Shown: positions 131 through 3,684 of the stretch, piece after piece
Layout: every line of letters begins with the position of its first letter
Numbering within the stretch: the stretch's first letter is position 1
Position numbers and translations under genes: made by a program
Notes under the pieces: model-generated
Told to the model about the DNA's origin: nothing
Databases searched by the model: none
The model's input: only the letters and a program-made list of their open reading frames with translations
Assembly: GCA_017463105.1 (NCBI GenBank)
Contig: JAFTPU010000002.1
Coordinates: 62,001 to 126,000 of the forward strand
DNA length: 64,000 nt
Direction: 5' to 3'
From: Clostridia bacterium
GTDB lineage: Bacteria; Bacillota; Clostridia; Christensenellales; Borkfalkiaceae

Positions 131-206
131 AAGAAAGTGCTGTCTTATACTCGCTTGATTTTTTACGGAAAAATCCCGCGAAATTCTGCGTATGGAAGGA
201 GGAAAA

Positions 207-941
207 ATGGTCGGACGTATTCATTCATTCGAATCCTTCGGTACGGTGGACGGACCGGGTATCCGTTTCGTCGTGTTTTTGCAGGGGTGTCCTCTGCGTT
301 GTAAATACTGTCACAACCCCGATACGTGGGGCGCGGGCGGAAAGGAATACACGGCGGAAGCGGTCGCGGCGCAGGCGATGCGTTATAAAAATTATTTCGG
401 CGACAAGGGCGGCGTAACGGTGACGGGCGGCGAACCGCTGTTGCAGATCGATTTCGTTACCGAGCTGTTCACGATCCTCAAAGAGAAAGGGATCCACACG
501 TGCGTGGATACGTCGGGGATCACGTTCGATCCCGATAATCCCGCAAGCGTCGAAAAGCACGAAAAGCTGTTGGAGGTCGCCGATCTGTTCCTGCTCGACG
601 TCAAGCATATCGACGAGGAAAAATGCAAAAAGCTGACGGGGCACGGAAACGCGCACACGCTGGCTTTCGCAAGATTTTTAAGCGAACGCAAGAAACCGCT
701 TTGGATAAGACAGGTGCTCGTGCCGGGGGTGACCGACGACGAAGACGATCTTAAAAAGACCCGCGCGTTCATCGATACGCTCGAAACGGTGGAGAAGGTC
801 GAGGTGTTGCCCTATCACACGATGGGCGTCGTGAAATACGAAAAGCTCGGTATCGACTATCCGTTAAAGGACGTGGAAGCGCCTTCGAAAGAACGGGTAC
901 AAAACGCTCGGCGGATATTATACGGTGAGAAACATGAGTAA
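207..941 (+). CDS. pflA: pyruvate formate-lyase activating enzyme
   Basis: Radical SAM activase that cleaves S-adenosylmethionine and installs the glycyl radical on pyruvate formate-lyase in the cytoplasm. The protein has 244 residues from this start. The [4Fe-4S] motif is C28-x3-C32-x2-C35 inside GCPLRCKYCHNP, and the SAM-contact segment VTGGEPL follows. The N-terminal HSFESFGTVDGPGIR block is typical of PflA. An in-frame ATG at 192 is less likely because the Shine-Dalgarno GGAGG (198-202) lies inside it and is well spaced for 207. The gene overlaps the next one by 8 bp and precedes the PFL core, so enzyme and activase are co-transcribed. Confidence 0.95.
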   Translation: MVGRIHSFESFGTVDGPGIRFVVFLQGCPLRCKYCHNPDTWGAGGKEYTAEAVAAQAMRYKNYFGDKGGVTVTGGEPLLQIDFVTELFTILKEKGIHTCVDTSGITFDPDNPASVEKHEKLLEVADLFLLDVKHIDEEKCKKLTGHGNAHTLAFARFLSERKKPLWIRQVLVPGVTDDEDDLKKTRAFIDTLETVEKVEVLPYHTMGVVKYEKLGIDYPLKDVEAPSKERVQNARRILYGEKHE

Positions 942-1251
942 AGATTACAAAGTACAATTGAAAGGACTTTGCTGTGTGGAGATCAGCGGAGAATCGTGCG
1001 CGAACTGTTTAACGCTGATGCCGATTCTGGAGCGGCTGTGCGCGGAGCGGAACGATATCAAGCTCGTGCACGTGGAAGCGGACTATACGACGACGGCGCT
1101 GATGGAGGAATGGGACGTGACCCGCGTGCCGACGATCCTGCTCACCGACGGCGAGGAGATATTCGCGAGGTGCTCGGGTTTTCAGCCCGAAGAGATCCTC
1201 GAGCTTTGGCTGGACGCGAAGCTCGAAGAACGCAAGGCGCTTAAAAAATGA
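934..1251 (+). CDS. thioredoxin-like protein
   Basis: A 105-residue thioredoxin-fold protein with a CANC redox motif near the N-terminus (GESCANCLTL) and the cis-proline segment RVPTILL, both typical of the fold. It lacks the WCGPC of true thioredoxins, so the reductant and partner are unknown. The start at ATG 934 is preferred over GTG 925 because GGTGAG sits just upstream at 924-929, and it overlaps the pflA stop in the arrangement ATGAGTAA. Its place between pflA and the PFL core suggests, by inference only, a role in keeping PFL cysteines or the activase Fe-S cluster reduced. Confidence 0.8.
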   Translation: MSKDYKVQLKGLCCVEISGESCANCLTLMPILERLCAERNDIKLVHVEADYTTTALMEEWDVTRVPTILLTDGEEIFARCSGFQPEEILELWLDAKLEERKALKK

Positions 1252-1316
1252 AAACAATGCCCGATCGCGGGCTTGTAGATAGAAGAAAAAAATATTATTT
1301 TTAGGAGTATACTGAT

Positions 1317-3350
1317 ATGATGCAATACAAAGGTTGGGAAGGATTCGTTCCCGGTAAGTGGTGCGATGACGAAGTAAACGTGCGCGATTTCATTCAGCGC
1401 AACTACACGCCTTACGAGGGGGACGCAAGCTTCCTTGCGCCCGCGACGGAAGAAACGAAGAAGCTGTGGGATATCGTTTGCGATCTGTCCAAAAAAGAAC
1501 GTGAAGCGGGCGGCGTTTTGAACGCGGATACGAAGATCGTTTCCACGCTCACCTCGCACGGCGCGGGCTATCTTGACAAGGATCTCGAGAAGATCGTCGG
1601 CTTGCAGACGGACGAGCCGTTCAAACGTGCTTTGCAACCCTTCGGCGGTATCCGTATGTCGGAAGGCGCGTTGGAAATGTACGGATATAAGCTCGATCCC
1701 GACGTAAAAGAAATCTTCACGAAATACAGAAAGACGCATAACGAAGGCGTATTCGACGTATACACGCCCGAAATGAGAGCCGCTCGTTCGGCGCATATCC
1801 TCACCGGTTTGCCCGACGCTTACGGTCGCGGCAGAATCATCGGCGACTACCGCCGCGTAGCGCTGTACGGCGTTGATTACCTCATTCAAAAGAAAGAAGA
1901 GGACAAACTTTCGATGAACGGCGACATGACGCCCGATAAAGTAAGAAATCGCGAAGAAGTGGCGGATCAGATCAAAGCGCTCAAGGCTTTGAAGGAAATG
2001 GCGGCTATTTACGGTTGCGATATCTCCAAACCCGCGGAAACGGCGCAACAGGCGATTCAGGCTCTGTACTTTGGCTACCTTGCGGCGGTCAAGGATCAGA
2101 ACGGCGCGGCAATGTCCATCGGCAGAAACACGACCTTCCTCGATATCTATATCGAACGCGACCTCAAGAAAGGTCTCATCACGGAAGAACAGGCGCAGGA
2201 ATTTATCGATCACTTCGTAATGAAGCTGCGTATCGTGAAATTCATGAGAACGAAGGAATACAACGAATTGTTCTCGGGCGACCCTACGTGGGTTACCGAA
2301 TCGATCGGCGGTATGGGCGTAGACGGCAGATCGCTCGTCACCAAGACCTCCTTCCGTATCCTGCACACGCTTGACAACCTCGGTCCCGCTCCCGAACCCA
2401 ACCTTACGGTTCTGTGGTCGAAAAAATTGCCCGTGGCGTTCAAGAGATACTGCGCGGACATTTCGATCCGTACCTCCTCCATTCAGTACGAAAGCGACGA
2501 TCTGATGCGTCCCGAAATGGGCGACGACTACGCGATCGCTTGTTGCGTAAGCTGTATGAAAGTAGGTAAAGACATGCAGTTCTTCGGCGCGAGAGCAAAC
2601 CTTGCGAAGTGCTTGCTGTACGCGATCAACGGCGGTAAAGACGAGCTTATGAAGGACAAAAAGACGGGCAAACCCATGCAGGTATCCCCCGAATTCATGC
2701 CCATCTTCGGCGACGACGCGCTCGATTACGATGAAGTCGTTGCGAAATTCGAAAACATGATGACGTGGCTCGCGGATCTGTACGTGAACACGCTCAACCT
2801 TATCCACTATATGCACGATAAGTACAGCTACGAAGCGTTGGAAATGGCGTTGCACGATACGAAAGTACGCCGCTTCTTCGCAACGGGTATCGCAGGTCTT
2901 TCCTGCGCGGCTGACTCCTTGTCCGCGATCAAGTATGCGAAAGTATACCCGATCCGTAACGAGGACGGCATCGTGGTGGACTACCGTATCGAGGGTGATT
3001 ATCCCAAGTACGGTAACAACGACGACAGAGCGGACGAGATCGCGGTTTGGATCCTCAAGACGTTCATGAAGAAGGTCAAGAGCCACTACACCTACCGTGA
3101 CAGCGTTCCTACGACCTCGATCCTTACGATCACCTCCAACGTCGTATACGGTAAAAAGACGGGTAACACGCCCGACGGCAGAAGAGGAGGTACGCCTCTT
3201 GCGCCCGGCGCGAACCCCATGCACGGCAGAGATTCGAACGGCGCGCTCGCTTCGCTCGAATCGGTTGCGAAACTTCCCTACGAATATTCGAGAGACGGTA
3301 TTTCGAATACCTTCTCGATCACGCCCAGCTCCCTCGGTAAAGAGGACTAA
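1317..3350 (+). CDS. pflB: pyruvate formate-lyase catalytic core lacking the glycyl-radical domain
   Basis: Formate C-acetyltransferase core of 677 residues that converts pyruvate and CoA to acetyl-CoA and formate. The catalytic cysteine pair is C409-C410 in ACCVSCM. The motif [23 protein letters not shown] and the [13 protein letters not shown] block are diagnostic for PFL. A normal PflB has about 740-760 residues and ends in the radical loop RVSGYAVNF. This protein ends at [10 protein letters not shown], just before that domain, and the missing piece is the next gene. AGGAG at 1303-1307 serves the ATG at 1317. The stop is a clean TAA followed by a 100-bp spacer with its own ribosome site for the next gene, so this is not a simple frameshift. 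Confidence 0.95.
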
Positions 3351-3372
3351 GGCGGACGAATAGAGTATTGAC

Positions 3373-3408
3373 GGCTTGCGCTCGGGCGGAGAAGCTCGGA
3401 GCGCAGCC
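3373..3408 (+). promoter_or_regulatory. intercistronic stem-loop between PFL core and radical domain
   Basis: The arms 3373-3383 and 3399-3408 (GGCT.TGCGCTC with GAGCGCAGCC, one bulged T) form a 10-bp stem with a 15-nt loop. No T-run follows, so it is not an intrinsic terminator. Such hairpins often protect or process mRNA and could set the ratio of the two PFL parts. Confidence 0.6.
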
Positions 3409-3450
3409 GAATAAAAACGAGCATACAATAATAAAAAAGGAGATAATATT

Positions 3451-3684
3451 ATGTCGAACAGAGTTGATAATTTGGTAAATATGTTGGACGGTTACGTCGG
3501 CGACGGCGGCTACCACCTCAACGTGAACGTTTTCAATCGTGAAACGCTTTTGGACGCACAGGCACACCCTGAAAAGTATCCTCAGCTCACCATTCGCGTA
3601 TCCGGTTACGCTGTAAACTTCATTAAATTGACGAAGGAACAGCAGGACGACGTTATTTCCAGAACCATTCACGAATCCATGTGA
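3451..3684 (+). CDS. stand-alone glycyl-radical domain of pyruvate formate-lyase (GrcA/YfiD-like)
   Basis: A 77-residue protein that matches only the C-terminus of PflB: an NLVNMLDGY start, [15 protein letters not shown], then RVSGYAVNF with the radical glycine at G52, and the HESM end. In ordinary PFL this segment is fused to the core. Here it is separate, with its own AGGAG (3438-3442) 8 nt before the ATG. E. coli GrcA is known to repair oxygen-cleaved PFL in the same way, but there it supplements a full-length enzyme. The neighbouring core has no radical domain, so this protein is probably an obligatory second subunit. A hairpin terminator follows. Confidence 0.92.

Follow-up and report, generated by a model that had tools for sequence, protein, structure and literature searches.

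A naturally split pyruvate formate-lyase in a Clostridia bacterium, with the radical glycine encoded by a separate 77-codon gene

The window analyzed here, a stretch of 64,000 nucleotides from contig JAFTPU010000002.1 of a Clostridia bacterium (GCA_017463105.1), encodes a naturally split pyruvate formate-lyase (PFL), consisting of a core gene and a separate gene for the radical domain. PFL is an oxygen-fragile fermentation enzyme and one of the main routes by which many fermenting anaerobes convert pyruvate to acetyl-CoA, with the radical domain as its weak point in air. The forward strand of the window carries, in order, pflA, a thioredoxin-like gene, the PFL core, and the radical-domain gene. 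The cognate activase therefore lies near the core, as pflA (192..941, 249 aa) encodes a PFL-activating radical SAM enzyme that matched TIGR02493 with 314.2 bits at a cut-off of 231.75. The thioredoxin-like protein (925..1251, 108 aa, with a CANC motif) matched PF00085 with 36 bits at a cut-off of 23.5. The core (1317..3350, 677 aa), which matched TIGR01255, is preceded by the ribosome site AGGAG (1303..1307), and an intercistronic hairpin without a following T run (3372..3409; spacer dG -26.8, z -3.1) lies between the core and the small gene (3451..3684, 77 aa). As the original prediction stated, the small gene has a ribosome site of its own, AAGGAG at 3437..3442, located 8 nt 5' of the ATG; both ribosome sites were read off the sequence.

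Core and small protein represent complementary halves of one PFL. The core ends in SSLGKED and spans positions 2-662 of the 744 positions of TIGR01255 (1094.7 bits, cut-off 994.2), while positions 665-744 were matched by the small protein and not by the core, the chain of which lacks the radical glycine. E. coli PFL aligned with the core as far as residue 678 and with the small protein over residues 681-759, which places the natural break 5' of the point, after residue 695, at which E. coli PFL was cut for the tests in PMC8683613. The adjacent catalytic pair Cys409-Cys410 is invariant in the core alignment and the SGY of RVSGY in the small-protein alignment (A2), each of 26 rows. Residue 52 of the small protein (codon 3604..3606, within SGY of the RVSGY motif) is the radical glycine, the role of which is known from the family. 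It had been claimed from the letters that the core stops at LGKED after 677 residues with Cys409-410 and without a radical loop, and that the next 77-codon ORF is the missing C-terminus with the radical motif, and both claims were borne out. The further claim that the glycyl-radical domain is a separate gene held for the gene but not for the whole domain, since the Pfam Gly_radical profile is divided, with positions 2-49 in the core and 52-106 in the small protein; the break thus lies within the C-terminal domain, 5' of the radical loop, and part of the domain stays in the core. The NCBIfam GrcA3 model (NF038360) covered the small protein end to end with a borderline score of 158.3 at a cut-off of 158, and with 157.5, just below that cut-off, in the frame search. 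With TIGR04365, the model of the GrcA spare part, the small protein scored 95.2 and remained below the cut-off of 170.

The favored reading, to which a probability of about 0.7 is given, is that the 677-residue core and the 77-residue radical subunit form one enzyme, in which the radical part is replaced once oxygen has cut it. As deduced from the sequence, the small protein would fill the barrel of the core, PflA would abstract a hydrogen from Gly52 of the small protein, and the resulting radical would start catalysis at Cys409-Cys410 of the core. Cleavage by oxygen at Gly52 would affect the small chain and spare the core, so that a fresh small chain together with PflA would restore activity. 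With a ribosome site of its own and the intercistronic hairpin, the small gene may be expressed at a level set independently of the core.

The break is kept across the genus. Among 25 genomes of the genus, counting that of the window, 20 provided a locus that extends to the core C-terminus (L006-L024 and L026); the remaining five yielded just fragments, a core piece for which no locus was fetched, or nothing matching PFL. Searching these relatives for the same break point, as had been proposed, showed the break in all 20 loci, its position agreeing to within a few residues, with the small ORF adjacent and spacers of 38-111 nt. The core ORF is open in the 19 relatives, where it is 83-94% identical to the window core. 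Run through the same pipeline, E. coli PFL was recovered as fused, with a chain of 760 residues. Six more distant relatives belonging to the same order as the window genome have a fused PFL (59-63% identical), and a split PFL (82% identical) occurs in a genome of another family of that order (G033). Among the matches listed for four other-genus members of the window's family, a stand-alone domain was seen in one (G206), and the other three are without a match.

Full-length PFL was not found in the window's own genome, which is 80% complete, nor in four same-genus genomes of at least 92% completeness (G001, G010, G012, and G020). The one other glycyl-radical enzyme found in the own genome has 843 residues, and above cut-off it matched a single NCBIfam model, TIGR01774 of the PFL2/glycerol dehydratase subfamily. 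This PFL2/glycerol-dehydratase-type enzyme is located at L004:1084-3615, beside genes that we take to encode microcompartment proteins. Searches with TIGR01255 revealed no full-length PFL in 57 of 59 split-PFL genomes, while both forms were present in the other two (G259 and G902). The 59 genomes were derived from sets of 18, 18, and 25, with two genomes shared between the last two sets; G215, which has just a piece of the core, and the genomes with a fused PFL (G324 and seven more) are outside this count. Radical-domain searches (E 1e-30) gave matches in 86 of 247 genomes, 33 of them stand-alone (open frame of at most 111 aa) and 53 in another frame, and in 109 of 244 genomes, 36 stand-alone and 73 in another frame; none held both, although this is a weaker test for both forms than the TIGR01255 search because the matches listed did not include the full-length PFL of G259. 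With 57 of 59 split genomes showing no full-length PFL, an obligate subunit is the best reading of the small protein, and this reading is well supported. Of the original interpretation, the obligatory nature of the small protein therefore stands, while its exchangeability is what we infer, with circumstantial support from the extra copies in relatives.

These data bear on three other explanations. An assembly error in the 100-bp spacer, or a recent pseudogene joining two frames, might be suspected from a single draft assembly; it deserves practically no credence, as it is refuted by the relatives: all 20 same-genus loci share the break but differ in their spacers. Each of the two ORFs also has its own ribosome site, and the core in PDB 38LA is identical to a natural 666-residue protein. 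It is hardly more believable that a full-length chain is produced as well, by readthrough or bypass of the stop. Three relatives (G333, G704, and G532) do encode both parts in the same frame, separated by one stop, but the window spacer (3351-3450) has a length of 100 nt and is out of frame, and the spacers of the relatives vary in sequence and length, for which reason this explanation was rejected. According to the third, the core gene is decaying, and the small protein serves as a GrcA spare part for an ordinary full-length PFL encoded elsewhere. The NCBIfam name “autonomous glycyl radical cofactor GrcA3”, the two genomes with both forms, and the missing 20% of the own genome would fit this, yet it is very improbable given the conserved open core in 19 same-genus relatives, and a hidden full-length PFL was rejected because none was found in the own genome, 80% complete, or in 57 of the 59 split genomes.

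Within the window's class, at least 16 of 293 genomes have a stand-alone radical domain among the matches listed. In the Catonella-family sample of 299 searched genomes, the stand-alone domain was the best match in at least 114 of 155 genomes with a match, with 15 fused rows listed and the matches of 26 genomes outside the list. On core trees, the rows of which were partly chosen for likeness to the window core, nearly all split cores fall into two clades (A and B) within one supported larger clade. Clade A, comprising the window genus, Traorella, and other Erysipelotrichaceae, holds tail-less cores with pflA and usually also the thioredoxin-like gene upstream. Clade B, with Lachnospiraceae, two spirochaetes, and others, holds cores with a tail of 11-43 residues past LGK and pflA mostly downstream. 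Fused rows sit beside clade A and inside clade B, and split and fused forms alternate with at least four changes, four of which are forced by supported branches; the wider core set gave seven changes, again with four forced. The wider tree also has split rows outside A and B, including G395 and G413 beside a relative with a fused radical domain but a broken frame. A single clade for all split cores (p 4e-8), clades A and B as one clade (p 6e-4), and clade B without the fused L090 and L116 (p 8e-6) were each rejected, while clade A alone as one clade was not (p 0.07).

The radical-domain tree (73 rows, 82 columns, rooted on E. coli GrcA) differs from the core trees in placing the stand-alone domains of A and B together, with a support of 93 that is not starred and with one fused row inside. 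Stand-alone domains are grouped with fused PFL domains from their own larger clade, at a long distance from E. coli GrcA, which disfavors an origin of the small gene by capture of a GrcA-type spare part. Judged by this tree, the small gene likely arose by fission, and the grade is kept at likely because few of the forks are supported. Since the stand-alone domains of A and B are grouped here, one early split with several re-fusions is possible, and on these trees it would be indistinguishable from several splits.

The locus L090:4989-7286 encodes a 766-residue fused PFL inside a split clade, with a cysteine-rich linker where its split relatives have the tail, and looks like a re-fusion. As some lineages appear re-fused (L090 and L116), the split would not be indispensable. 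Cysteine-containing tails past the break, e.g., GACS-PTL, were observed in eight tailed cores (L118, L120, L121, L123, L127, L128, L185, and L189), and such a tail could possibly act in docking or as a redox switch. Core and small gene are separated by pflA in L103 and nearly touch in L073-L075, with spacers of 1-4 nt. For the fused relative L076 the predicted structure was poor (pLDDT 55.5). Phage records matching the small radical domain numbered 1538; among the best 40 of 1538, many are contigs without annotation, and the others presumably represent known phage cofactors.

Spacers between core and small gene vary in sequence, but many of them can fold into a hairpin, with z below -2 in 22 of 37 distinct spacers of 40-170 nt from loci at least 80% identical. 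The spacer hairpin was stronger than in 9 other spacers of the window (median z of -2.9 vs -0.7; p 0.015 from rounded values and a small control), and the spacers between thioredoxin-like gene and core lean likewise with a median z of -1.5. The thioredoxin-like protein falls below the NCBIfam thioredoxin cut-off (36.2 vs 96.8), and CxxC occurred in all 59 of its hits, with some genomes counted twice. Besides the CANC motif, it has a conserved G-[FY]-Q-P-E-E-I stretch. In the neighborhood comparison its gene accompanied split cores of clade A exclusively, never a fused PFL, and it is missing in L024 and L062. The protein may reduce an oxidized active-site cysteine pair. In Fannyhessea vaginae, grcA, pflB, and trxA were all strongly down together, according to the available part of PMC11979175.

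No extra copy of the small gene was found in the window's own genome, in which, at 80% completeness, one small gene was seen. Five unlinked extra small genes, without core or pflA in the fetched stretch, were identified in G333, G532, G683 (two), and G704 from the Traorella-class and G333-family samples, with G673 left out as a contig-end duplicate. Among the matches listed for the Catonella-family sample, at least 21 genomes have two stand-alone copies, for which 42 loci were fetched. Dropping G913 as a contig-end duplicate left 20 extra-copy loci, not counting G902, which holds a full-length PFL, and G981, the second match of both being outside the list. RVSGY is kept in all 25 extra copies. 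On a tree of 22 extra and 21 core-linked copies (80 columns), the two kinds were intermixed and little resolved.

Several extra copies have oxygen- or redox-linked neighbors. In G333, the small gene is followed by a Fur-family gene and rubrerythrin, and both genes also occur within 2.6 kb after the small gene in G704 and one copy of G683, i.e., near three of the five extra copies, while the other G683 copy and that of G532 are without such neighbors. The Fur-family genes scored best against PerR models; PerR is a guess, because these scores were far below cut-off. Among the 20 Catonella-family copies, a Crp-family regulator was present at five (directly upstream in four), rubrerythrin at two, and thioredoxin at four. 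Within the fetched windows of this sample, a Crp-family regulator or rubrerythrin occurred at 6 of 20 extra copies vs 0 of 21 core-linked loci (Fisher p 0.009), and the core-linked loci of the other set had Fur, Crp, or rubrerythrin at 0 of 18 and thioredoxin at 3 of 18. Pooled, a Fur, Crp, or rubrerythrin neighbor accompanied 9 of 25 extra copies vs 0 of 39 core-linked loci (p 7e-5), or 11 vs 3 with thioredoxin counted (p 0.001); these counts are not independent tests, because the categories were picked after the loci had been seen and G683 and G704 belong to the same genus. Thioredoxin, found at both kinds of loci, was dropped as a marker of extra copies. No Fur, Crp, or rubrerythrin neighbor was present at 16 of the 25. 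Seven extra copies (L216, L220, L223, L227, L230, L234, and L249) adjoin a divergent sporulation operon, spoIIIA. The extra copies near oxygen- or redox-linked genes support, without proving, replacement after oxygen damage.

It is unlikely, though by no means negligible, that the two chains form an obligate PFL without exchange, the gene having broken by neutral or stoichiometric fission and the chains assembling once with no benefit for repair. The single small gene of the own genome, the adjacency of small and core genes in the window genus, the spacers of 1-4 nt in L073-L075, and the apparent re-fusions L090 and L116 agree with this. The unlinked extra copies argue against it, as they all keep the radical motif and some lie near oxygen- or redox-linked genes, and so do the four or more split/fused changes on core trees, though splits and re-fusions are not told apart there. 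Two-chain exchange is favored because of the family matches and motifs, the split in 20 of 20 same-genus loci, and the 57 of 59 split genomes without full-length PFL. It is also favored because of the motif and neighbors of the extra copies, the precedent of truncated E. coli PFL (tPFL) with YfiD, and the available part of PMC12208373, in which Amygdalobacter nucleatus, the apparent source of 38LA, is counted as formate-producing. It is weakened because the own genome shows no spare copy, two genomes hold both forms, and most extra copies are without a Fur, Crp, or rubrerythrin neighbor. More tentative is its extension to a cartridge system, in which a disposable radical domain would be swapped after oxygen exposure and several lineages would keep spare cartridge genes beside Fur-family/rubrerythrin and Crp-family genes.

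If two-chain exchange is true, the vulnerable part is a separate 77-residue chain, and repair is routine subunit exchange instead of the rescue of a broken enzyme. The stand-alone radical domain is common, as the Catonella-family sample indicates, although its curated family is named as if for a spare part. Exchange, if shown, could help to explain differences in oxygen tolerance among fermenters and could give a simple radical-enzyme module for engineering.

Among known systems, E. coli PflB is one 760-residue chain, whereas the PFL of the window consists of two. E. coli GrcA (YfiD) supplies the same radical domain in trans to a PFL without its own, but it coexists with full-length PFL, which was not found in the window's genome. 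Its disordered N-terminus of 60 residues, which aids binding, is absent from the small protein of the window. According to the available part of PMC8683613, which also describes that N-terminus, truncated E. coli PFL with YfiD equals wild-type activity once activated; the binding is weak, with no ITC signal and 32-fold less radical, so that such a split is not automatically functional. The extra reach of the natural small chain, corresponding to E. coli residues 681-695, may secure binding in the window pair. The name of NCBIfam GrcA3 (NF038360) implies a spare part for an intact PFL; since none was found in the window genome, its GrcA3-type protein is better read as a subunit.

The closest structural counterpart by its end point is PDB 38LA, a formate acetyltransferase core that comes from another organism and, like the window core, stops at LGKED. 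Over 664 aligned residues it shows no difference from a natural protein of 666 residues, and it shares 99% identity with a protein named Amygdalobacter nucleatus, the apparent source of 38LA. Judged by the core, from which the split in A. nucleatus is known here, 38LA would be a naturally split core with a structure already solved by others. PDB 38LB is a tailed core with about 50 residues past the break and no radical-domain match, like clade B and unlike the tail-less clade A of the window. In the available part of PMC12208373, A. nucleatus is among the formate-producing organisms with growth reduced by hypophosphite, and samples of women with bacterial vaginosis yielded 63 PFL spectra that are unique to its genus. 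Within the open-licence PMC literature, including the available parts of PMC8683613, PMC12288474, PMC12338860, PMC11528403, PMC12208373, and PMC11979175, no description of a split PFL was found, nor a paper on 38LA or 38LB, nor the exchange idea for a split PFL, spare copies, or repeated split/fused changes. A split PFL as such is already known from NCBIfam GrcA3 and PDB 38LA, to which the present analysis adds the alternation of split and fused forms on core trees and the unlinked extra copies of the radical subunit in relatives.
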